Below, piece after piece: positions 1 through 12,126 of a DNA stretch of 64,000 bases. The notes below the pieces were generated by a model that did not search any database, was not told the DNA's origin, and worked only from the letters and a program-made list of their open reading frames with translations. Source of the stretch: Candidatus Poribacteria bacterium (GTDB lineage: Bacteria; Poribacteria; WGA-4E; WGA-3G); contig JAPPII010000092.1 of the NCBI GenBank assembly GCA_028820845.1, forward strand, positions 108,571-172,570, given 5' to 3'. The first letter of the stretch is position 1; each line of letters starts with the position of its first letter. The position numbers were made by a program, and so were the translations under genes.

Positions 1-254
1 GTTTGTAGTAGGGCAATTCATTGCCCGTTGTTAAGCGGAAGACGTGCGATAAATCGCACTACTACGAACCAAACCGTTTGTAGTAGGGCAATTCATTGCC
101 CGTTGTTAAGCGGAAGACGTGCGATAAATCGCACTACTACGAACCAAACCGTTTGTAGTAGGGCAATTCATTGCCCGTTGTTAAGCGGAAGACGTGCGAT
201 AAATCGCACTACTACGAACCAAACCGTTTGTAGTAGGGCAATTCATTACCCGTT
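1..254. repeat. 75-bp palindromic tandem repeat, 3.4 copies
   Basis: Three identical 75-bp units lie at 1-75, 76-150 and 151-225, followed by a partial fourth copy (226-254, one mismatch). Each unit contains two hairpins, one around GGGCAA/TTGCCC and one around GTGCGAT/ATCGCAC. Its outer ends are also complementary (GTAGTAG near one end, CTACTAC near the other), so a copy can fold as a large cruciform. The unit length is a multiple of three, which keeps a frame open into cas1, but nothing suggests this is translated. It may continue left of the window. Confidence 0.95.
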
Positions 255-273
255 AATCTTTAGGAGGCATCAA

Positions 274-1266
274 ATGGCAATCCTTTACATCACCCAACAA
301 GGCGCAATGCTCCACAAATCCGGAAACCAAATCCTCGTGAAAAAAGAACGCGAGGTCCTTCAGGAAATCCCAATTGTCCAATTGGATGAAGTCGTTATCT
401 TCGGCAATGGACACATCACAACACCGACGATGGGATACCTGCTTGATAAAAGCATCCCAGTCTCTTTTCTCTCCTCACGCGGAAAGTATAAAGGAAAACT
501 CCAACCCGCGTATGGCAAAGATACACGCGTACGCCAACAACAGTACGCCGTTGCTACAGATTCAAAGCATTGTGTGGCGTTAGCGAAGTGTTTCGTTCGC
601 GGCAAACTCACAAACGCCATCCGATTTTGCCAACGACAGCGCACCCAAAATGCCGAAATTAAGTCAGCAATCCGTTCTGTGCGTCAAACCGTGCAAAAAC
701 TTGAACGTGCGAAGAATTTGGAATCGCTGCTCGGATACGAAGGCACGGGCACAGCCGCCTATTACCGCGCATTCCGGCAACTGCTACGCCACGATTGGGG
801 CTTCACATCCCGACAATTCCGACCACCACCCGACCCAATTAACGCCATGCTTTCACTCGGTTATACACTCTTACACAACCATGTCTATACCTTCACCCAT
901 GTCGTCGGATTCGATCCATACTGCGGATATTTCCATCAACCCAAGCACGGACATGCAGCACTCGCATCGGACATGATGGAAGAGTTCCGCCAGATTATTG
1001 TTGACGGATATGTGCTTTCACTGATTAACAACAATCGGGTTAAACCCGAAGATTTTGAGCAAACTAACAAAGGCATCCGATTCACGAAAGAGGCATTGGA
1101 TCGCTTTCTGACTGGGTACTATGGACGGATGCAGCAGACGTTTCAGCACCCGATACGCAAGGAGAAAACGAACTACCTGCGTTGTGTTGAACTTCAGGTC
1201 AGGCATTTGGCACGTGTGATTATGGGCGAAGATGAGATCTATAGACCATTTCTCATTGATGTCTAA
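274..1266 (+). CDS. cas1: CRISPR-associated integrase Cas1
   Basis: Cas1 (330 aa) is the metal-dependent integrase that inserts new spacers at the leader end of a CRISPR array, normally as a complex with Cas2. The start at 274 is set by a strong ribosome site (AGGAGG, 262-267); the frame stays open further upstream only through non-coding tandem repeats. The N-terminal beta domain is followed by the helical catalytic domain. Likely metal ligands are E156 in GYEGTG, H221, and D233/E236 in the SDMMEEFR segment. Length is normal for the family. It lies just upstream of the leader of the array and in the same orientation. No cas2 follows it, and interference genes are not in the window; they may lie to the left. 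The repeat ending ATTGAAAC would suit a type III or I-D system, but subtype cannot be fixed from cas1 alone. Confidence 0.95.
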   Translation: MAILYITQQGAMLHKSGNQILVKKEREVLQEIPIVQLDEVVIFGNGHITTPTMGYLLDKSIPVSFLSSRGKYKGKLQPAYGKDTRVRQQQYAVATDSKHCVALAKCFVRGKLTNAIRFCQRQRTQNAEIKSAIRSVRQTVQKLERAKNLESLLGYEGTGTAAYYRAFRQLLRHDWGFTSRQFRPPPDPINAMLSLGYTLLHNHVYTFTHVVGFDPYCGYFHQPKHGHAALASDMMEEFRQIIVDGYVLSLINNNRVKPEDFEQTNKGIRFTKEALDRFLTGYYGRMQQTFQHPIRKEKTNYLRCVELQVRHLARVIMGEDEIYRPFLIDV

Positions 1267-1279
1267 AAACGCTTTACTT

Positions 1280-1314
1280 CATGCGTGGATGGCCCCCGTG
1301 CCCATCCACGCATG
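1280..1314. terminator. hairpin downstream of cas1
   Basis: A perfect 13-bp stem (1280-1292 with 1302-1314) encloses a 9-nt loop just after the cas1 stop codon. There is no T-run after it, so it is either a weak terminator or another of the many intergenic palindromes. It separates cas1 from the CRISPR leader. Confidence 0.55.
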
Positions 1315-1360
1315 ACCTTATGCTCAAAAGGCAGGCTCAGCTGAATTTTTCAGAAAAAAT

Positions 1361-1389
1361 TTGACATTTTTGCGGATTTAGTATAATAT
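1361..1389 (+). promoter_or_regulatory. CRISPR leader promoter
   Basis: A consensus TTGACA (1361-1366) is followed by TATAAT (1382-1387, 15-bp spacer) overlapping TAATAT (1384-1389, 17-bp spacer). It lies in the A/T-rich leader (about 1315-1628), some 240 bp before the first repeat and pointing into the array. It is the obvious candidate to drive the precursor crRNA. The rest of the leader has no ORF. The sequence just before repeat 1 (after about 1600) would be the integration-determining part. Confidence 0.75.
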
Positions 1390-1628
1390 TTAATACGGTA
1401 TTCCAAACGCGATTTATTGAGGGTGCGCGTGTGTATCACAAATTGCCCAAGAACCCATACTGCATTTGGATTCTCGATGGTTTTTTCAAAAAAACCGCGT
1501 TTGGATCAATGTTTACAAGGGTTCATGGGATTTTTGGGATAGAATTTTGAGGCAAAAAAGCCTCGCGCAGTTCGCGTTTGGTTTTGTGCCTACGGCTCCC
1601 CGTCTGGCCTGGATGCAAAAAGGGGTGA

Positions 1629-4600
1629 GTCTGAACACACTTTCCCGCTCGAAGGGAATTGAAACTAAGATTTTTAAGCTTCAACCAAAATATAAAATTC
1701 CGGTCTGAACACACTTTCCCGCTCGAAGGGAATTGAAACTTTTTTCAGGCGGGAGGTAAATTTTTAAGTTTCAAATTGTCTGAACACACTTTCCCGCTCG
1801 AAGGGAATTGAAACTTAATCCCAAAACGTCTACTTTCATTGCTTTTTCCTCCGTCTGAACACACTTTCCCGCTCGAAGGGAATTGAAACCCAATTTAGGC
1901 AAAGACACCTTGACCCGCTCGCTATCTGGTCTGAACACACTTTCCCGCTCGAAGGGAATTGAAACTATTTTCCCCTTGTTATGCGGGAACGATAATCCTG
2001 TCTGAACACACTTTCCCGCTCGAAGGGAATTGAAACAATTGAGCTTCCACAAAGCTGTAATAGGTTTCGGTCTGAACACACTTTCCCGCTCGAAGGGAAT
2101 TGAAACATTTCTCCAGAAGTTTCTCCAAAAGCGAGACAGCCGTCTGAACACACTTTCCCGCTCGAAGGGAATTGAAACTTTTTTGCGTGGATCGTTTGCC
2201 GTAAGGACATCTCCGTGTGTCTGAACACACTTTCCCGCTCGAAGGGAATTGAAACGCGATTCCAAAAAATCTTTTTAACATTTTATAGAAAATGTCTGAA
2301 CACACTTTCCCGCTCGAAGGGAATTGAAACAGTATTCTTCTTTTTTCCAGCGGATTGGTTGGTTATTGGTCTGAACACACTTTCCCGCTCGAAGGGAATT
2401 GAAACAGAACCTCTTCCACCGACGTCACCGTTGTCGTGCTGCCGAGTCTGAACACACTTTCCCGCTCGAAGGGAATTGAAACAAAACAAAAACCTCGAGC
2501 TTATTCTTCATTTTCAATTCGTCTGAACACACTTTCCCGCTCGAAGGGAATTGAAACATGGGACTCAATGATCGTGAGGCGGTACCATACAGTAGTCTGA
2601 ACACACTTTCCCGCTCGAAGGGAATTGAAACATTTATAAATCCGACTGTTTCGGGATCCGCCAACGCAATGTTGGCACGGAGTCTGAACACACTTTCCCG
2701 CTCGAAGGGAATTGAAACGGCGTTAAAAGAACGAGTTGTTGTTAAACAACCTCGTCTGAACACACTTTCCCGCTCGAAGGGAATTGAAACCAGTTCTGCC
2801 ACTTGGACCGCAATACTATCCCGTGTCTGAACACACTTTCCCGCTCGAAGGGAATTGAAACTAAGAATCGCCTCCCTAACCTTTAGAGGCAAGTCTGTCT
2901 GAACACACTTTCCCGCTCGAAGGGAATTGAAACGTGATTCCTAATTCACGCGCTGTGTAGTTCATCCCTATAGTCTGAACACACTTTCCCGCTCGAAGGG
3001 AATTGAAACATTCACATACCCGCCTACGTCAACCGCCGACATTTGTCTGAACACACTTTCCCGCTCGAAGGGAATTGAAACGTATCCCGTTGTCGTTCAG
3101 TTGAACGATTTCATTAACAGTCTGAACACACTTTCCCGCTCGAAGGGAATTGAAACGCGCCATCTAATTCTACTTTAAAGTAATGAGGATGTGTCTGAAC
3201 ACACTTTCCCGCTCGAAGGGAATTGAAACTTTGGATGCCCACGTTCGCCATGGTTTGTATTTATCAAGTCTGAACACACTTTCCCGCTCGAAGGGAATTG
3301 AAACCATCGGGGATGCCGATAGCGAGAAGTCCCGTGTATGTGGGTCTGAACACACTTTCCCGCTCGAAGGGAATTGAAACTGAGATGCCTCACGGCTACT
3401 TCGTGCGAAGCGCGGATTGGTCTGAACACACTTTCCCGCTCGAAGGGAATTGAAACATAAAGAGCTTGGTCTGGCAAACCATTACGCGGTCTTCCAGACA
3501 AGTCTGAACACACTTTCCCGCTCGAAGGGAATTGAAACTTAGGAGACGTCAGAAAACACTTCACGCATAGTGTTCTGTCTGAACACACTTTCCCGCTCGA
3601 AGGGAATTGAAACGCACAAAGGCCCGTGATTAACTTCATTTCTTTCCGGTCTGAACACACTTTCCCGCTCGAAGGGAATTGAAACGCGGACGGTATTTTA
3701 TATAAAAAACCTTGACACACTGTCTGAACACACTTTCCCGCTCGAAGGGAATTGAAACGTTCGGCGTCTCCGCCGGGCCCTGCATAGAAGGATTGTCTGA
3801 ACACACTTTCCCGCTCGAAGGGAATTGAAACAGGAACAGGAGGACATCCTCATTCTTGAGGCTTTTCGTCTGAACACACTTTCCCGCTCGAAGGGAATTG
3901 AAACTTACTGGTGTCGGAGGAACTTTGTCAGCCCATACTGGTCTGAACACACTTTCCCGCTCGAAGGGAATTGAAACTTATGAAGGTCGTCATGGCTCAT
4001 ACTCCCTAATTGGAGTCTGAACACACTTTCCCGCTCGAAGGGAATTGAAACTCGAAAAACGTGTTGCACTTTTAACCCATTTTCTTGGGCCAGTCTGAAC
4101 ACACTTTCCCGCTCGAAGGGAATTGAAACTTGGTCTAACATTCTAAACTCCTTTGTTTGAAGTGTGGGTCTGAACACACTTTCCCGCTCGAAGGGAATTG
4201 AAACAGGAAAGGTAAAAAGATTGCCATTGCGACAACCAGTCTGAACACACTTTCCCGCTCGAAGGGAATTGAAACTTATTGTTATTCCTTCGTCATAGAT
4301 GAAGCCGTTGACTTCGTCTGAACACACTTTCCCGCTCGAAGGGAATTGAAACACTCCACGACGGGAGCAGTAACGGAGTCGATTAAGAAGTCTGAACACA
4401 CTTTCCCGCTCGAAGGGAATTGAAACAGTCTAAGCTCGGTGGGACACATCCTCCTTACTGGTCTGAACACACTTTCCCGCTCGAAGGGAATTGAAACATC
4501 GCTCTGATCAAGCGTACTCCCTGGGACCTCATATAGTCTGAACACACTTTCCCGCTCGAAGGGAATTGAAACAGATGTCTACACTGTAGACGATGGTTCC

Positions 4601-6058
4601 TTGGAGTTGAAGTCTGAACACACTTTCCCGCTCGAAGGGAATTGAAACATATCCGTTAGATTCAAGTAAGTTAATTTTTTCTTGTCTGAACACACTTTCC
4701 CGCTCGAAGGGAATTGAAACCATTTTTGACTGCATTCAGCACTGCCTTTTTGTATAGTCTGAACACACTTTCCCGCTCGAAGGGAATTGAAACGAGTTCC
4801 TCGCGACCCCGCTCAAGAGCGGTGACGAACGGTCTGAACACACTTTCCCGCTCGAAGGGAATTGAAACCATTGCAAAAAGCAGTTAGAACTTCGTGCAGC
4901 ATGTCTGAACACACTTTCCCGCTCGAAGGGAATTGAAACACGATTGCCCCTTCCTCTATTATCGCATTTGCGGAAAGTCTGAACACACTTTCCCGCTCGA
5001 AGGGAATTGAAACTCCGTAAATTGTAAACCAGTATTCGCCATGTTCACAATTATAGTCTGAACACACTTTCCCGCTCGAAGGGAATTGAAACGAAATTTC
5101 AACCTCAATGGCCACCTCGCCACCTGGGAGGTCTGAACACACTTTCCCGCTCGAAGGGAATTGAAACTTATAACGTCCGAGAATACAGTTTACAATATCA
5201 AGTCTGAACACACTTTCCCGCTCGAAGGGAATTGAAACACACGGTGTGTCTCCTTCAATTTGAAGTGTGGCAGGTTGTCTGAACACACTTTCCCGCTCGA
5301 AGGGAATTGAAACAATGCTCCGTCAACAGACACCGGCAACCCGTCAGCGGCACCAGTCTGAACACACTTTCCCGCTCGAAGGGAATTGAAACTATTTTTT
5401 TGATTTCTTCAAAAGAATCATCATTCCAGTCTGAACACACTTTCCCGCTCGAAGGGAATTGAAACTATTTCAAAACCTTTTGTGTTAAATACTATAAAAA
5501 AAGTCTGAACACACTTTCCCGCTCGAAGGGAATTGAAACTTGTGTGAACCTCCATTAGATTGAAAGGAGCGAGTTGTGTCTGAACACACTTTCCCGCTCG
5601 AAGGGAATTGAAACTCATCGCGAACCGCAATTAGCGTACCGCAAACCGGTTTGAGCCCATTTCCCCAATCGAACCGGATGGAAACAAGAACGAATAGCGG
5701 TCCGCGGTACGCGATTCGCGAGAAAGTCTGAACACACTTTCCCGCTCGAAGGGAATTGAAACTCATCGCGAACCGCAATTAGCGTACCGCAAACCGGTTT
5801 GAGCCCATTTCCCCAATCGAACCGGATGGAAACAAGAACGAATAGCGGTCCGCGGTACGCGATTCGCGAGAAAGTCTGAACACACTTTCCCGCTCGAAGG
5901 GAATTGAAACTCATCGCGAACCGCAATTAGCGTACCGCAAACCGGTTTGAGCCCATTTCCCCAATCGAACCGGATGGAAACAAGAACGAATAGCGGTCCG
6001 CGGTACGCGATTCGCGAGAAAGTCTGAACACACTTTCCCGCTCGAAGGGAATGGGAAC
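1629..6058 (+). CRISPR. CRISPR array, 57 repeats of 37 bp
   Basis: The repeat is 37 bp, begins GTCTGAACACAC, has the short stem TTCCC/GGGAA in its centre, and ends ATTGAAAC, the usual 8-nt crRNA 5' handle of type I/III repeats. I count 54 repeats from 1629 to 5614 with 53 different spacers, mostly 33-42 bp; two are longer (2632-2681, 50 bp; 3457-3501, 45 bp). Three more repeats start at 5726, 5874 and 6022, separated by identical 111-bp blocks. The last one has a degenerate 3' end. Orientation is left to right: leader promoter and cas1 are on the left, the handle is at the repeat 3' end, and decay is on the right. Repeats elsewhere in the array appear uniform, suggesting an active leader end. 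I found no spacer that obviously matches another part of this window, though that was only checked by eye. Confidence 0.98.
5578..6058 (+). repeat. 148-bp triplicated CRISPR unit with internal degenerate repeat
   Basis: Repeats at 5578, 5726, 5874 and 6022 are separated by three identical 111-bp blocks. Each block divides exactly into 34 bp, a 37-bp sequence that matches the CRISPR repeat at 26 of 37 positions (it begins GTTTGAGCCC and ends TGGAAAC), and 40 bp. The original structure was therefore two spacer-like segments around a decayed repeat, and the 148-bp unit was then triplicated in tandem. The two spacer-like segments resemble each other in inverted orientation and look like intergenic repeat sequence rather than phage DNA. 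Confidence 0.9.
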
Positions 6059-6132
6059 CGCATATCGCATACCGCCAACCGCATACCGAAAAGCAAACAG
6101 CGGTAAACGGTCAGCGAAGAGCGATAAGCAAT

Positions 6133-6236
6133 TTTTGAACACACTTTCCCAATCGAAGGGAGGAGGGATATCCATCCCTCCTCCCTTCCATCTTCCAACC
6201 TTCGCCTACCCTTTCCCGATCGAAGGGAATGGAAAC
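6133..6236 (+). repeat. decayed CRISPR repeats of the array tail
   Basis: Two degenerate copies of the 37-bp repeat lie at about 6133-6169 and 6200-6236, separated by a 30-bp spacer-like stretch. They keep the central TTTCCC...CGAAGGGA core. A 74-bp stretch of GC-rich, low-complexity sequence (6059-6132) separates them from the last array repeat. Confidence 0.8.
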
Positions 6237-6559
6237 GAAAAGAAAAATAAACGACCTTGCTATAAAATCAGACCCCGAATCGGTTGCGGATGACGAATAT
6301 CTAAACATCCGCGTCAATCCGCGATTCAGACGAACAAATCTTATAATCATATAAATCACAGTTCTGACAACAAAATATCCAAAAATCCGCGTCATCCGTG
6401 TCATCCGCGAAAATCCGCCATTTGCGGCGTACTCGACCCCGGTTCATGCCACACGGCATGAATACCCGGTTCATGCCCTAAGGCATGAATACCGTTGATT
6501 CTGATTCATGCGACGTGCATTCAGACAATTCGACAATTGACTGCCGCTGTGCCTGCAGC
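6237..6559. other. intergenic region with short palindromic repeats
   Basis: No convincing gene. It contains several imperfect copies of a motif around ATCCGCG and TCATCCG (about 6318-6415), and two palindromes of the form GGTTCATGCC...GGCATGAATACC (about 6443-6493). These look like dispersed intergenic repeats lying between the CRISPR tail and the next gene. Confidence 0.6.
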
Positions 6560-6568
6560 AAATTCCGC

Positions 6569-6597
6569 TTGACCTCTCTTCTTTGATATGTTATCAT
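6569..6597 (+). promoter_or_regulatory. sigma70-type promoter of the small membrane gene
   Basis: TTGACC (6569-6574), 17-bp spacer, TATCAT (6592-6597). The surrounding 51 bp (6560-6610) are nearly the same as 9299-9349, the promoter and ribosome site of the PhyH-HEAT gene. The two copies support each other as a real promoter/leader cassette. Confidence 0.65.
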
Positions 6598-6618
6598 TGT
6601 TGTATTGGAGATATTGTT

Positions 6619-6849
6619 ATGACGACGATAGATGAACTATCCAAATTAATGAAAGAAGGTTTTGAAGCATTAAACAAACGGCTTAATCACATAGACATAC
6701 GACTCCGTTCTGTTGAAACCGATGTTGCGTGGATAAAAGGTAAGTTTGAAGGGAGACAAGAAGACAGAGCGAGTGTCTGGCAGGTTATCACGACTGCTAC
6801 TGCTGTTGGAGCAGCCATCATTGCACTTATTGCGCTCTTCTTGAAATAA
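6619..6849 (+). CDS. small coiled-coil protein with C-terminal membrane anchor
   Basis: A 76-aa protein. The N-terminal ~50 residues are charged and helical with heptad-like spacing (MKEGFEALNKRLNHIDIRL, then RSVETDVAWIKGKFEGRQE). A single hydrophobic segment near the C-terminus (about residues 54-75) ends in LFLK. The start is chosen from the TGGAG ribosome site 8 bases upstream and the promoter at 6569-6597; the frame is open slightly further upstream. It sits between decayed CRISPR repeats on both sides. The same architecture occurs in the 140-aa protein at 12173-12595. Function unknown; a membrane-tethered helical adaptor or scaffold is only a guess. Confidence 0.7.
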   Translation: MTTIDELSKLMKEGFEALNKRLNHIDIRLRSVETDVAWIKGKFEGRQEDRASVWQVITTATAVGAAIIALIALFLK

Positions 6850-6906
6850 CTGAAATAATCTAATGCCTTTCCCTCCAGCTGCTTGCCCGATTCTTCTTCA
6901 TTCGTT

Positions 6907-7010
6907 TCTTTGCTTCCCTTTTCACGCTCGAACGGAATGGAACTCTTAACCCACAACTCATAACCCAGCACCCATCTAAACACACTTTCCCGCTCGAAGG
7001 GAATTGAAAT
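6907..7010 (+). repeat. orphan CRISPR repeats beyond the small gene
   Basis: Two more copies of the 37-bp CRISPR repeat: a degenerate one at about 6907-6943 and a nearly perfect one at 6974-7010 (G to A at positions 1 and 5, C to T at the last). The 30-bp gap between them is low-complexity sequence like intergenic stretches elsewhere in the window. They lie 670-770 bp past the last tail repeat, so the array either once extended to here or has been split by inserted sequence. Confidence 0.85.
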
Positions 7011-7056
7011 CGACCGATACTTAATACGCACAACGCATCACAATTTGGAATGAACT

Positions 7057-9075
7057 ATGGAAATCCCTTTACTTTATGACATCTGCATCATATTCGGCTT
7101 ATCAATTGGCGTTCTACTCATCTGTCATAGATTGGGGGTGCCCTCGATCGTTGGCTTCCTCGTGACAGGATTGATTGCAGGGCCTCACGGATTGGAGCTA
7201 ATTCGGGCTGACCACGAAGTTGAAATCCTAGCCGAGATTGGGGTCATTTTACTGCTGTTCACCATCGGCATCGAATTTTCACTGAAACATCTGCTTCAGA
7301 TTAAGCAAGCAGTGTTGATAGGGGGATCATTACAGGTCGGATTGACGCTGCTCGCGGCGTTTGCACTCGCTTGGCACTTCGGACAGGCGATCAACGCATC
7401 GCTTTTTATCGGTTGCCTCGCCGCCCTTAGCAGCACGGCGATCGTGATGAAATTGCTACAAGAGCGTGATGAAACAAGAACGCCGCATGGAGGCACAGCA
7501 TTGGCAATCCTGATTTTTCAGGATATTGCCATCGTCCCGATGATCCTGATTACGCCAATCCTTGCCGGACACGCAGGAGACATGAGCAGGGCACTCATTT
7601 TACTGTTGGTAAAAGGTGTCGCGATGATTGCTGTGGTGTTTGTTGGGGCAAAATACATCGTGCCGCGCATTCTATCGCAAGTCCTGCGAACGCGCAGCCG
7701 AGAGATCTTCTTGTTGAGCGTTCTCGCAATCTGCCTCGCCGTCGTCTGGTTGACATCGCGTTTCGGCGTGTCTTTGGCACTTGGTGCCTTCCTCGCAGGA
7801 CTAATCGTCTCCGAATCGGAGTCGAGCCACGACGCACTCGGTCACATCTCACCGTTTCGGGATGTGTTCACCAGCTTCTTCTTTGTGTCAGTCGGGATGT
7901 TACTCGATTTTCACATACTCTTTGAAAAGCCATTGTTGATTGCAGGACTGACAATCGGTGTTCTCGTTGTAAAAAGCATCATTGCGGGCGGAGTAACCTC
8001 GATGCTCGGATACCCGCTACGCACGGCGATTCTGGCGGGACTCACACTCAGTCAGGTAGGAGAATTTGCGTTGATCCTCGCGAAATCGGGTATCGAACAC
8101 GGCTTGCTCAGTGACGCAAATTACAACCTGTTTCTCGCTGTTTCGGTTGTAACGATGGCTGTAACACCCTTTATCATCTCGGCAGCACCGCATGTCGCCG
8201 GTGGGATACTACGATTGCCGCTCCCAAGACGACTCGTGTCAGGATTAAAACCCATCGCTGCAACGCAAAATACTGAGCGGACGAACCATGTCATCATTAT
8301 TGGTTTCGGCGTCAACGGACGAAACGTCGCAAAAGCCGCCCGGGCGGCAGACATCCCGTATGTCATCGTCGAAATGAATCCCGAAATCGTCCGAACGGAA
8401 CAAGCCAATGGTGAGCCGATTTTCTACGGTGATGCTATTCACGACGCCGTACTTCACCATGCGAACATCAAAGCAGCGCGAGTTGTTGTCGTCGTCATTG
8501 CTGATGATGCCGCCTCGCGTCGAATCGTGGCAGCCGCCCACGCCTTGAATCCAACGGCGCACATTATCGCCAGAACGCGCCATCTTGCTGAAGTCGAACC
8601 GCTATATCGTATCGGGGCAAAAGAAGTGATTCCAGAGGAGTTCGAGACATCCGTCGAAATTTTCACGCGGGTGTTGATGGAATATCTCATCCCGCATGAT
8701 CAGATCGAACAGTTCATTGCCGAGGTCCGGGCTGATGGGTATAAGATGTTCCGTACACCGCCCGAGGACACATCATCCGCCTCCGACCTGAAGGTGCATT
8801 TCCCTGACTTTGAGATTGCAGTCCTATGGGTCGATCCGAAATCACCTTTTGTTGGGAAATCCTTGACAGAAATCGCTTTACGAGGGACCTCCGAGGTGAC
8901 GATCTTAGCAGTCCGACGCAATGAACAGATTTTAACGAATCCGCACGACGAACTACGGATTGAGCTTGATGACGAAGTTTATCTGCTCGGAAACCCTGAG
9001 AAAATCGCTCAGGTTGCCGATCTGTTCGATAACCCTGAAAACCAAGAACCAACACAAACGGATGTGGCGGATTAA
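7057..9075 (+). CDS. Kef-type cation/proton antiporter with RCK domains
   Basis: A 672-aa CPA2-family monovalent cation:proton antiporter of the inner membrane, probably K+/H+ or Na+/H+. Residues ~5-385 form the Na+/H+ exchanger domain with about 12 membrane segments (start LLYDICIIFGLSIGVLLI, then GFLVTGLIAGP). A cytosolic TrkA-N/RCK nucleotide-binding domain follows at ~410-530, with GFGVNG near residue 415 as the dinucleotide loop. A TrkA-C domain lies at ~575-660 and would bind a regulatory ligand. Length and order match KefB/KefC-like proteins, but no glutathione-responsive subclass can be assigned. No strong ribosome site precedes the ATG. It appears monocistronic. Confidence 0.92.
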   Translation: MEIPLLYDICIIFGLSIGVLLICHRLGVPSIVGFLVTGLIAGPHGLELIRADHEVEILAEIGVILLLFTIGIEFSLKHLLQIKQAVLIGGSLQVGLTLLAAFALAWHFGQAINASLFIGCLAALSSTAIVMKLLQERDETRTPHGGTALAILIFQDIAIVPMILITPILAGHAGDMSRALILLLVKGVAMIAVVFVGAKYIVPRILSQVLRTRSREIFLLSVLAICLAVVWLTSRFGVSLALGAFLAGLIVSESESSHDALGHISPFRDVFTSFFFVSVGMLLDFHILFEKPLLIAGLTIGVLVVKSIIAGGVTSMLGYPLRTAILAGLTLSQVGEFALILAKSGIEHGLLSDANYNLFLAVSVVTMAVTPFIISAAPHVAGGILRLPLPRRLVSGLKPIAATQNTERTNHVIIIGFGVNGRNVAKAARAADIPYVIVEMNPEIVRTEQANGEPIFYGDAIHDAVLHHANIKAARVVVVVIADDAASRRIVAAAHALNPTAHIIARTRHLAEVEPLYRIGAKEVIPEEFETSVEIFTRVLMEYLIPHDQIEQFIAEVRADGYKMFRTPPEDTSSASDLKVHFPDFEIAVLWVDPKSPFVGKSLTEIALRGTSEVTILAVRRNEQILTNPHDELRIELDDEVYLLGNPEKIAQVADLFDNPENQEPTQTDVAD

Positions 9076-9180
9076 TGTTACACTTTCTACCAAATTATTT
9101 TTTTCACAACAGAAAATCGGGAATGAAACATCAACAAACCCTTACGACCACTATGTTCTCTAACGTTACACACCCAACAC

Positions 9181-9206
9181 AAAATGTTACACCAGTGTAA
9201 CATTTT
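9181..9206. promoter_or_regulatory. perfect 12-bp dyad, ATGTTACAC half-sites
   Basis: AAAATGTTACAC (9181-9192) and its exact inverse (9195-9206) are separated by two bases. The arm is followed by TTT, so it could terminate the antiporter transcript. However, the half-site GTTACAC also occurs alone just after the antiporter stop (about 9077-9083) and near 9163, which fits a regulator-binding cluster upstream of the dioxygenase promoter. Confidence 0.5.
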
Positions 9207-9307
9207 TAAGGGAAATTACGAAGAAATATATCGTTAAGTTAAAACTATATTCACGTCCGTTTTCACGAAGAATAGACTGATTCAACATCGCCTCTGGTAA
9301 ATTCCGC

Positions 9308-9336
9308 TTGATCTCTTTTTTTTCCTATATTATCAT
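9308..9336 (+). promoter_or_regulatory. sigma70-type promoter of the PhyH-HEAT gene
   Basis: TTGATC (9308-9313), 17-bp spacer, TATCAT (9331-9336), then GGAGG at 9346-9350 before the ATG at 9359. It is almost the same cassette as at 6560-6610. Confidence 0.65.
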
Positions 9337-9358
9337 TGTTGTATTGGAGGTTTTAACT

Positions 9359-10870
9359 ATGCAAGCCAAGCCACTTATGAGCGAGCACAGCAAACTGACC
9401 GACGCGCAGCTGCGGGAGTTTATCGTGAATGGACATCTCACCGTCCAAACCGATCTGCCGCGGAGTTTTCATGAAACCATCTATCGTAAAACGCAGGAAT
9501 ACACAGAAAAAGAAGGGAATTTAGGGAACAACATCTTGCCGCGCGTCCCAGAGTTGCAAGCTGTTTTTGAAGATCCAGCCGTCCGAGGTGCGTTCACAAG
9601 TATTCTCGGCGAGAATTACGCCATGCATTCCCATCGGCATCCGCATCGCAACAATCCACACAGCGATGGACAAGGATTCCACAAGGATAGTTATTGGGGT
9701 TATCAGAAAGTCCGCCATCATTGTCCGCGTTGGGCAATGGCGTTCTACTACCCCCAAGATTCGCCGGTCGAAATCGGACCCTCAGCCGTTTTACCCGGAA
9801 CGCAGTACTATAGCACTCGCATCACGAAAAATAATGATGGTGAGTTAGCACTCAGTGGCGCAGCGGGGACGATAACGATTATCCACTTTGACCTGTGGCA
9901 TCGCGCCATGGCGAATCTGACCGACAAAACGCGCTACATGATGAAGTTCCAGTTCGTTCGGATGGACGCACCGCGGGCACCCGAATGGAACGTAACCAAT
10001 CCGCACTGGAGACTGGAAAACGGCGATCCGGCAATCCCGCGGCATCAAGGCACATGGCGGCACGTCTGGAACTGGATGGCAGGAGAATCCAACGGGCATG
10101 CAGCGCAGCCGGTTTCCAATGGAAATCTGTCAAAACACATCACAGCATTGGGTAATGAGGATACCTCTCTCCGTTCCGACGCCGCTGACGAAATAGGGAT
10201 GTTAGGTGAATCCGCAGCAGAAGCAATTCCACACCTCATTCAGGCACTGTGTGATGTTTATGAACCTGTTCGGTTGAATGCCGCGTACGCTCTCGGAGCT
10301 ATCGGCGCACCTGCTGTTCCCCAACTGATTGAAGTGCTTGGTGTTGAAGACCAAATCATGCGACGGATGGCTGCTTATGCATTAGCAGCAGTCGGGACAC
10401 CTGCTGTCTCCGCCTTGAGTGAGGCATTACAACACGCCGAGGATGCCGTTCGTGTTGAAGCCACCTACGCCTTAGCACAAATAGGTGTAGATGCCGAACC
10501 TGCTATCCCCGCCTTGATGGAACGGACAAAGGACAATTCCGTTGAAGTCCGTCGCTATCTCGCCGAAGCCTTCGGTGGTATCGGTCCGGCTGCAAGCCCC
10601 GCGCTCCCTGTGCTCTGCGACATGCTAATCAGTGATGGGGACGGACAGGCACGGTTTGAAGCGGCATTGGCATTGGCACAGATTGGACCCGCCGCAAGCG
10701 ATGCAATCCCCGTGCTGACAAAGGCATTTGCCGACGAGAATCGCTACGTCCGAGATAATGCCGTCCTCGCACTCAAACGGATTGACACACCCGAAGCCGA
10801 GTCGGCACTTTTTGATTACCTACTTATGACACGCTGGTGTCCGATTACAAACCGTGAAAGCACGCACTAA
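9359..10870 (+). CDS. PhyH-family Fe(II)/2OG dioxygenase fused to HEAT repeats
   Basis: A 503-aa protein. Residues ~15-235 are a phytanoyl-CoA dioxygenase-like double-stranded beta helix. Likely iron ligands are H108 and D110 (in GFHKDS) and H181 (in DLWHRAM), with R192 as the 2-oxoglutarate-binding arginine. Residues ~265-495 are five or six HEAT/PBS-lyase-type repeats of about 30-37 residues (for example AAYALGAIGAPAVPQLIEVL). The family hydroxylates small molecules or lipids with 2-oxoglutarate; the substrate here is unknown. The HEAT part could recruit a protein partner. The start is set by GGAGG 8 bases upstream. PhyH proteins are usually ~250-300 aa, so the C-terminal repeat array is the unusual part. 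No operon partner is evident. Confidence 0.88.
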   Translation: MQAKPLMSEHSKLTDAQLREFIVNGHLTVQTDLPRSFHETIYRKTQEYTEKEGNLGNNILPRVPELQAVFEDPAVRGAFTSILGENYAMHSHRHPHRNNPHSDGQGFHKDSYWGYQKVRHHCPRWAMAFYYPQDSPVEIGPSAVLPGTQYYSTRITKNNDGELALSGAAGTITIIHFDLWHRAMANLTDKTRYMMKFQFVRMDAPRAPEWNVTNPHWRLENGDPAIPRHQGTWRHVWNWMAGESNGHAAQPVSNGNLSKHITALGNEDTSLRSDAADEIGMLGESAAEAIPHLIQALCDVYEPVRLNAAYALGAIGAPAVPQLIEVLGVEDQIMRRMAAYALAAVGTPAVSALSEALQHAEDAVRVEATYALAQIGVDAEPAIPALMERTKDNSVEVRRYLAEAFGGIGPAASPALPVLCDMLISDGDGQARFEAALALAQIGPAASDAIPVLTKAFADENRYVRDNAVLALKRIDTPEAESALFDYLLMTRWCPITNRESTH

Positions 10871-10910
10871 CAAACCTCTATATTCACTCACCATTTTCCC
10901 CATGAAGGTA

Positions 10911-10963
10911 GGTGCGGTTTTGCGGCGTACTCGACCAAATGCGATGTGCATTCTAACCGCACC
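10911..10963. repeat. intergenic GGTGCGGTT/AACCGCACC inverted repeat
   Basis: GGTGCGGTT at 10911-10919 and its inverse at 10955-10963, with 35 bp between them that include GCGGCGTACTCGACC, also seen at about 6424. Tight versions of the same palindrome occur at 12933-12953 and 52926-52946. Confidence 0.75.
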
Positions 10964-10974
10964 GAACATTTATT

Positions 10975-12126
10975 ATGAACTACGACCTAATCATTAAAAA
11001 CGGAACCGTCGTCGATCCTGCCCAAGGCATCCATGCCCGCAAAGATGTCGGATTCGCCAACGGACGCGTCTCAGCAATCAGCGATGCGATGCCAACATCC
11101 GAAGCGAGAGAGGTACTGGATGCAGAAGGGTGTTTCGTTACACCCGGCCTCATCGACTTACACGTTCATGTCTTTTACGGTGTAAGCCACTTTGGAATCG
11201 AACCCGACCCGACCTGTCTGGCGCGTGGGGCAACGACAGTCGTTGATGCTGGGTCCGCAGGCGCGGATACATTCCCCGGTTTCCGTAAATACGTCATTGA
11301 TGTCAGCGACACACGTATCTTGGCGCAATTGAATATCTCTTCGCAAGGCATGCTCACGCAAGAGATTGGAGAGTTGGAAAATCCTGACTATGCCGATGTC
11401 GGAAAGGCGTGCCGAATGATAGAGCAGCATCGCGACATCATCTTAGGGGTCAAAGTCCGCTTGACGCGGGAGAGTATCGTCGGTGCAAGGGCACAGATGT
11501 TGCCGTTGCACAGGGCACGTGAAGCCGCTGACGCTGCAGGACTCCCTATAATGGTCCATCCGCAAGACGCTTGGTGTGAATCTATTGATGATATATTAGC
11601 ACTGATGGGAGCGCGTGATATTCTAACCCACTGCTTCCACGGTATGGAATGTGGTATTTTGGATGAAAACGGCAGGATTCGGGATGCCGTCCATGCCGCC
11701 ATAGAACGCGGTGTTATCTTTGATGTCGGACACGGGGCGGGGTCTTTCAGTTGGGATGTTGTTCAGAAAGCGATGGCGCAAGGCGTTGAACCCACAACAC
11801 TCTCATCGGATTTGCATACCTACAACGTTGACGGTCCCGTTTACGATCTCGTGAATGTCGTAAATAAATTCCTACATCTCGGCATGTCGCTTGACGACGC
11901 ACTTGCGAAGGTCACAAGCATTCCCGCTGAAACTATATTGATGCCGGGACAAGTGGGGACATTAGCTGTTGATGCCTGGGGGGATGCCGTGATTTTTGAA
12001 CTGCGAGAGGGCGAATTCCAACTCACAGATGCACACGATCAGGTGCGGATTGGGAAAAAGAAGTTAGAACCAATTGTCGTGGTCAAAGGTGGGCAAGTGT
12101 ATCGACAGAAAGGAGTAGGGAGATAA
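10975..12126 (+). CDS. amidohydrolase/deacetylase-family metallohydrolase
   Basis: A 383-aa member of the amidohydrolase superfamily (dihydroorotase/imidazolonepropionase fold), in the amidohydrolase/deacetylase branch. Binuclear metal-site residues are visible: H63 and H65 (DLHVHV), a probable carboxylated lysine K160 (GVKVR), H195 (MVHP), H219/H222 (HCFHG) and catalytic D279 (SSDLH). The N-terminal beta segment (DLIIKNGTVVDP) and the C-terminal strands form the usual composite domain. It should hydrolyse a cyclic amide, imide or N-acyl substrate; the actual substrate cannot be read from sequence. There is no clear ribosome site before the ATG. It is separated from the dioxygenase by about 100 bp of repeat, so co-regulation is unproven. 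Confidence 0.88.
   Translation: MNYDLIIKNGTVVDPAQGIHARKDVGFANGRVSAISDAMPTSEAREVLDAEGCFVTPGLIDLHVHVFYGVSHFGIEPDPTCLARGATTVVDAGSAGADTFPGFRKYVIDVSDTRILAQLNISSQGMLTQEIGELENPDYADVGKACRMIEQHRDIILGVKVRLTRESIVGARAQMLPLHRAREAADAAGLPIMVHPQDAWCESIDDILALMGARDILTHCFHGMECGILDENGRIRDAVHAAIERGVIFDVGHGAGSFSWDVVQKAMAQGVEPTTLSSDLHTYNVDGPVYDLVNVVNKFLHLGMSLDDALAKVTSIPAETILMPGQVGTLAVDAWGDAVIFELREGEFQLTDAHDQVRIGKKKLEPIVVVKGGQVYRQKGVGR

Follow-up and report, generated by a model that had tools for sequence, protein, structure and literature searches.

Decayed repeats of two types, a small gene and heptad hairpins in the tail of a Candidatus Poribacteria CRISPR array

The terminal repeat of CRISPR1 in Streptococcus agalactiae is described as differing from the typical repeat, mostly at its 3' end, and as conserved within lineages (PMC4466440), and the sharing of trailer ends between strains is likewise already in print (PMC4004331). 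The array analysed here is similar in that its trailer-end content is common to strains, but differs from CRISPR1 as described in that several tail repeats match the active types of other species, with genes and hairpins between them (PMC4466440). In Haloquadratum walsbyi, a relic CRISPR with a MITE inside one of its spacers has been described (PMC3119063); our locus shares with it a dispersed genomic element inside a gap of a decaying array, and is unlike it in that heptads adjoin tail repeats in several species and complete genes occur as well. Heptanucleotide intergenic direct repeats are documented in marine Beggiatoaceae and others (PMC4679880), to which we liken the heptads found here by description; ours are degenerate and, in the DNA analysed, arranged as hairpins. 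Additionally, type III CRISPR-Cas systems with a reverse transcriptase (RT) beside Cas1 are known (PMC5513706), and cas6, cas2, a group II-like RT and cas1 lie beside the present array in the same manner.

Each of these ingredients is known singly, and the cross-species record of repeats in array tails is a new variation on them. Our search of the literature for tails holding the active repeat type of another species found none, which is not proof of absence. We know of nothing in RT-associated type III biology that accounts for genes in an array tail. Integron gene cassettes consist of a gene bounded by repeated sites. The intervals described below resemble such cassettes in this arrangement of gene and repeats, and are unlike them in that the repeats are CRISPR repeats and each interval holds one gene. 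We think that this array, which has an RT-associated adaptation module, probably ends in a fossil trailer.

Array, leader and adaptation genes

The DNA analysed is a stretch of 64,000 nt (hereafter the window). Close relatives of the locus are titled Candidatus Poribacteria MAGs, and we read the host as a sponge symbiont and the array as a sponge-symbiont CRISPR array. Its body and what precedes it are as follows.

274-1266, plus strand: cas1 (Pfam Cas_Cas1, E 1.9e-93)
1429-1628, plus strand: presumed leader, its 200-nt extent set by eye; stretches that look alike on reading stand before the arrays of relatives
1629-5910, plus strand: array body, with 56 exact copies of the 37-nt repeat GTCTGAACACACTTTCCCGCTCGAAGGGAATTGAAAC

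The direct repeats are identical and the spacers unique and of similar lengths, as in a CRISPR array; of the gaps, 53 are 33-50 nt long and two are 111 nt. The adjoining cas genes are cas1 and, upstream of it on the same contig, those for a CARF protein (Csx1-type matches), Cas6, Cas2 and the group II-like RT, the last standing beside cas1 and cas2 as in an RT-associated adaptation module. The RT matches the group II RT model at 2.6e-79, which is below the model cut-off, and the PADLOC RT model at 1.2e-97. The match of RT models to this gene (L053:8403-9791) is split in two, and the roughly 110-130 residues that separate the parts contain a hydrophobic stretch. Two ORFs of locus L058 carry a GGDD motif, read by eye, and are putatively Cas10-like. 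A REP-associated tyrosine transposase lies among the cas genes (L053:3127-3729, minus strand), and the 75-nt tandem repeats ahead of cas1 (window 1-254) may be REP-like elements of this transposase. Rfam at gathering thresholds gave no match in window 1-12000.

Repeats of the tail and their types

Beyond the body, the repeats depart to varying degrees from the array repeat; mismatches below are to that repeat and out of 37.

5578-6021, plus strand: three tandem copies of a 148-nt unit (repeat, gap S1, variant repeat R', gap S2)
5649-5685, also 5797-5833 and 5945-5981, plus strand: variant repeat R', three identical copies ahead of R0, 11 mismatches each, sitting in 111-nt gaps
6022-6058, plus strand: repeat R0, 2 mismatches, with a heptad hairpin directly after it
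6133-6169, plus strand: decayed repeat D1, 10 mismatches
6200-6236, plus strand: decayed repeat D2, 9 mismatches; nearest repeat type that of the second array of genome G025
6908-6944, plus strand: decayed repeat D3, 13 mismatches; nearest repeat type likewise that of the second array of G025
6974-7010, plus strand: terminal repeat D4, with 3 mismatches; it corresponds to the terminal repeat of genome G002

The original prediction had placed decayed or near-perfect repeats at about 6133, 6200, 6907 and 6974. All four are present, the third starting at 6908, and the copies of R' in 111-nt gaps (5649, 5797, 5945) and the 2-mismatch copy at 6022 are additional to it. The gaps of 30 bp claimed within each pair hold for the first; the second is 29 nt here, but 30 nt in the same-species genome G060. 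A first-order Markov null (3 x 55 kb) produced a single match at 15 mismatches and no closer one, and no other copy at 14 or fewer mismatches was found in the rest of the window. When 13 repeat types were compared with 140 kb of real control DNA, none matched at 12 or fewer mismatches, two did at 13 and three at 14; a Markov null of 51 kb had none at 14 or fewer. D3, at 13 mismatches to its own array repeat, has 8 to its nearest type. The likeness of the tail copies to the repeats is far beyond chance. Dispersed CRISPR-like elements were ruled out, since a 25-nt core pattern (3 or fewer mismatches) occurs at 64 places in the 5.69-Mb genome, of which 63 are in the array or tail and one elsewhere, with 0 for the reversed control.

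Repeats are decayed at the end distal to the leader, as in a degenerate trailer, although the decay is not monotonic, the outermost D4 (6974) being better kept than D1-D3. Nor is it throughout a decay from the array's own repeat. R0, D1, D4 and R' are nearest their own type, and D2 and D3 are nearer the type CTTTGCCTACCC... of G025, a sister species that has this type in use in its second array. D2 has 3 mismatches to it, against 9 to its own array, and D3 has 8 against 13 (6 against 11 in G060). Across 38 genomes the type is found within 3 mismatches in three: G025, and G000 and G060 by D2 itself.

Tails of other loci also hold foreign types. We surveyed 47 tail copies from 17 sources, leaving out G060; four array-less loci contributed five of the copies. 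A foreign type is clear in D2, D3, two copies of G005 (locus L131), one of G002 (L135) and one of L156, and weaker in copies of L124, L118 and L139, these nine having been chosen after viewing the survey table. Simulated random decay reached the margin in none of 20,000 runs for D2, for either G005 copy, for G002 or for L156, in one run for D3, and in 80, 95 and 143 runs for the weaker copies in L124, L118 and L139. Among the other tail copies that have an array of their own, most are nearest the type of that array, with a few tied or one mismatch nearer another. As most of the 47 are nearest their own type or lack an array, a foreign type in the tail is recurrent and not the rule.

Ordinary end decay of one repeat type, with chance similarity at 6200 and 6908, would draw on a process already known for terminal repeats (PMC4466440), but we consider it highly improbable given how seldom simulated decay (0 runs for D2, 1 for D3) came as near to the foreign type. 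It is also possible, though in our judgement unlikely, that a second array, of the other repeat type, supplied from its tail the segment running from D2 through the gene to D3, which was spliced in through the common repeat core. D2 and D3 are of one type, unlike D1 and D4 at their flanks, and G025 carries both types in two arrays; yet a second array of that type was not found in this genome, and the 10-kb stretch of the second array of G025 has no match to the small gene.

For the fossil trailer that we prefer, the second genome of the species is informative about age. The G060 contig (3574 nt) runs from the leader end through one ordinary spacer, one R-S1-R'-S2 unit, R0, the 74-nt hairpin, D1, D2, the gene, D3 and D4. 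Its tail aligns to that of the window with a few substitutions and indels of 9, 27 and 1 nt, and its copy of the 76-aa gene has 99% protein identity. The array body is different, with one ordinary spacer against 53 in the window. Thus, the tail predates the strain split unless the G060 array was collapsed by assembly, which is possible as the named relatives are MAGs. The 148-nt unit (window 5578-6021) is present in three copies in the window and in one in G060.

The site in relatives and the gaps of the tail

The gaps between the tail repeats, and the genes downstream of them, comprise the following.

6059-6132, plus strand: 74-nt 7-nt-periodic hairpin in a spacer position; its lag-7 excess of 0.41 exceeds that of all 53 spacers, it folds at -26.3 kcal/mol with z -5.5, and a 79% relative lies at C101
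6155-6188, plus strand: 15-pair hairpin of the end of D1 and the next gap (fold z -6.3 for 6150-6199)
6237-6907, plus strand: 671-nt insert between D2 and D3
6569-6597, plus strand: sigma-70-like site TTGACC-17-TATCAT (promoter scan)
6619-6849, plus strand: 76-aa gene of a multicopy Poribacteria family, nine matches in the genome including itself
6945-6973, plus strand: 29-nt 7-nt-periodic gap (lag-7 periodicity)
7057-9075, plus strand: cation/proton antiporter gene in the flank (Pfam); DNA similarity to nine relatives starts between 7001 and 7052
9353-10870, plus strand: PhyH-HEAT gene (Pfam), marker of the array site in relatives' loci

The best 80 of 105 PhyH-HEAT loci were retrieved and the first 46 (L116-L161) examined, with up to 7 kb upstream covered and less than 1 kb in six of them. 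Array-family repeats lie upstream of PhyH-HEAT on the same strand in 15 of the 40 readable loci, four of the 15 having one or two relic repeats only. The window's 76-aa gene is absent from all 15, and a member of its family was detectable among the 46 loci, within the same upstream reach, in L124 only, where a different paralogue (43% identity) stands between tail repeats. On comparison at this locus, G060 has nearly the same tail with the gene, and the 15 relatives keep the repeats without it. The result that would have refuted the original prediction, a relative with the gene in the same flanks but without repeats, was not seen; six close homologues in other species (L072-L077, with about 1.5 kb of flank or less each) have only gene sequence in common with window 5500-7100.

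In G002 (L103/L135) the tail consists of a repeat, a heptad stretch, a decayed repeat, a spacer and the terminal repeat GTTTAAACACAC..., with no gene between. The terminal repeat has TAAACACAC in common with D4, and the G002 array itself uses GTTCAGATACGC. Because D4 matches this repeat at the same site, where there is no gene, we read D4 as the probable old outer limit of the array, with the gene and the intergenic-type hairpins inside it. The 94 nt beyond the G002 terminal repeat are related to antiporter-upstream DNA in genomes G046 and G047. The antiporter (window 7001-9078) is 91% identical to one in G026, of the same genus. Five genomes from a different family of the order have it at 85-89% identity, yet none of the other 34 same-genus genomes compared gives a full-length match, a distribution that suggests horizontal transfer.

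The 76-aa protein has, by reading, a coiled-coil and one C-terminal hydrophobic stretch. It gave no Pfam match at E 0.1 and no usable name from PADLOC, from NCBIfam, whose best match (E 0.033) is below cut-off, or from PHROGs, whose best match (E 0.0013) is of unknown function. Its family is present in 35 of the 38 genus genomes, with near homologues in other places, and no CRISPR role for it is needed. Around 200 nt of the insert (6337-6543) match dispersed repeats with many genomic copies. The small gene between the repeat pairs had been predicted to have its own promoter; the gene is there, and the promoter amounts to a promoter-like site, whose match is weak evidence because the region holds three such sites against 1.8 expected. 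Window 6551-6615 is 82% identical to 9290-9354 (upstream of the 76-aa and PhyH-HEAT genes, respectively), in this species only among the loci compared. A viral origin of the tail genes was set aside, as neither the 76-aa gene nor the G005 gene had a relative among viral contigs; an exact search there for 27 nt of the repeat also found nothing.

One account of the insert would have the tail once end at D2, before the PhyH-HEAT promoter, until a block carrying the small gene, D3, D4 and the antiporter came in downstream and the promoter stretch was duplicated. A 51-nt stretch around 6569-6597, upstream of the small gene, is indeed 88% identical to one upstream of PhyH-HEAT, in this species only among the loci compared, and none of the 46 loci examined, with up to 7 kb covered, has the antiporter upstream of PhyH-HEAT. 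However, an identity of 88% indicates no recent duplication, and the junction of repeat and antiporter looks older because G002 keeps an antiporter-upstream remnant beside its terminal repeat; we regard this account as improbable.

Genes in tails are not confined to the window. Counting the window and 15 relatives, a gene stands between two tail repeats in four of 16 loci: the 76-aa gene in the window, another paralogue of the same broad family in L124, a DUF805 gene in L123 and a 90-aa gene without a Pfam family in L131 (G005). The longest ATG ORF of each of the four gaps is on the array strand, with shorter ORFs on the opposite strand. The likely start codon follows the repeat by 40-57 nt in L123, L124 and L131 and by 382 nt in the window. 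The 836-nt gap of L118 has no plus-strand ORF of at least 60 aa and one 76-aa ORF on the minus strand. We rejected the L124 gene as a sister of the window gene, as it groups with another paralogue of this genome in a tree with long branches and weak forks; L123 was left out of the reading of this tree, having entered by a match at E 0.22 and not by its coiled-coil gene. The family of the G005 gene occurs in two of the 38 genus genomes, both times at an array tail: in G005 it is flanked by repeats, and in G014 it comes immediately behind the last one (90-93 aa, no Pfam match; L099 reverse strand 9871-10180 and L105 reverse strand 2803-3084).

Such repeat-bounded genes might be oversized spacers captured as cassettes by the Cas1-Cas2-RT machinery, and their place on the array strand in the four loci, with a start codon close behind the repeat in all but the window, would fit. 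We find this scarcely credible, because the window insert has more than 300 nt ahead of the promoter, some 200 of them dispersed intergenic repeats, unlike a captured transcript, and because the inserts lie among decayed trailer-end repeats and not at the leader, where units get added.

The remaining gaps set the tail apart in another way. In lag-7 periodicity, each of the five tail gaps of the window exceeds at least 52 of the 53 ordinary spacers. The S1-R'-S2 stretch folds with z -4.2, the folding covering the hairpins of the window. In nine of the 16 loci at least one tail-repeat end is followed by a heptad stretch (p 0.008 or less), and such stretches (p 0.01 or less) follow 13 of 33 tail-repeat ends chosen by the author; the null was random windows of coding and non-coding DNA mixed, so that enrichment is not measured against intergenic DNA alone. 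Thus, heptad stretches after tail repeats are common at this site and no local accident. The predicted resemblance of the gaps to intergenic repeats is supported by this 7-nt periodicity, unlike nearly all ordinary spacers, and by partial relatives of two gaps elsewhere in the genome: that of the 74-nt hairpin at C101, and one of gap S2 at C96 (89% over 35 nt). Alignment of the gaps to the genome gave these relatives, but blast against 165 kb of the genome's own DNA did not set tail gaps apart, 44 of the 53 ordinary spacers also matching at E<1.

How the tail may have formed and what it means

If the tail is a fossil trailer, as we favour, the array body would be replaced from the leader side, by new units and occasionally by a new repeat type, and the distal end would be neither copied nor used any longer. 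That end would retain repeats of predecessor arrays, one type at 6974 and the other at 6200 and 6908. It would decay neutrally and take in heptad hairpins native to the genome and, in this case, 671 nt of intergenic DNA including the small gene, which may have arrived by insertion or recombination at a spacer position. A point against plain neutrality is that genes are bounded by repeats in four of 16 loci, with the longest ORF on the array strand each time. The uneven decay, with D4 better kept than D1-D3, and the minority of tail copies that are of a foreign type also speak against the fossil reading.

The original prediction, that the trailer was invaded by or recombined with repeat sequence and a gene cassette, keeps its core, in that a gene and intergenic-type hairpins lie inside the array limit. 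The history is more than the decay of a single repeat and one invasion, because the repeats flanking the gene are nearer another type and heptads recur at nine of 16 loci.

A bolder proposal is that array tails in this clade's RT-associated loci act as a capture site, where whole genes lodge as repeat-bounded, co-oriented cassettes, with at least one family (G005 and G014, among the 38 genus genomes) found in tails only. We hold this to be very doubtful; if true, array ends would be small integron-like shelters that move with the locus. The findings also carry a caution, that genes within array limits need not be CRISPR genes.

If tails keep the repeat types of predecessors, they would form a layered record of CRISPR-locus turnover at one site, readable across species. 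Such a record would make testable whether repeat types change by drift or by a swap of leader and repeat. As the old tail described here keeps repeat types now used by other species, the ends of arrays can record earlier versions of an immune locus.
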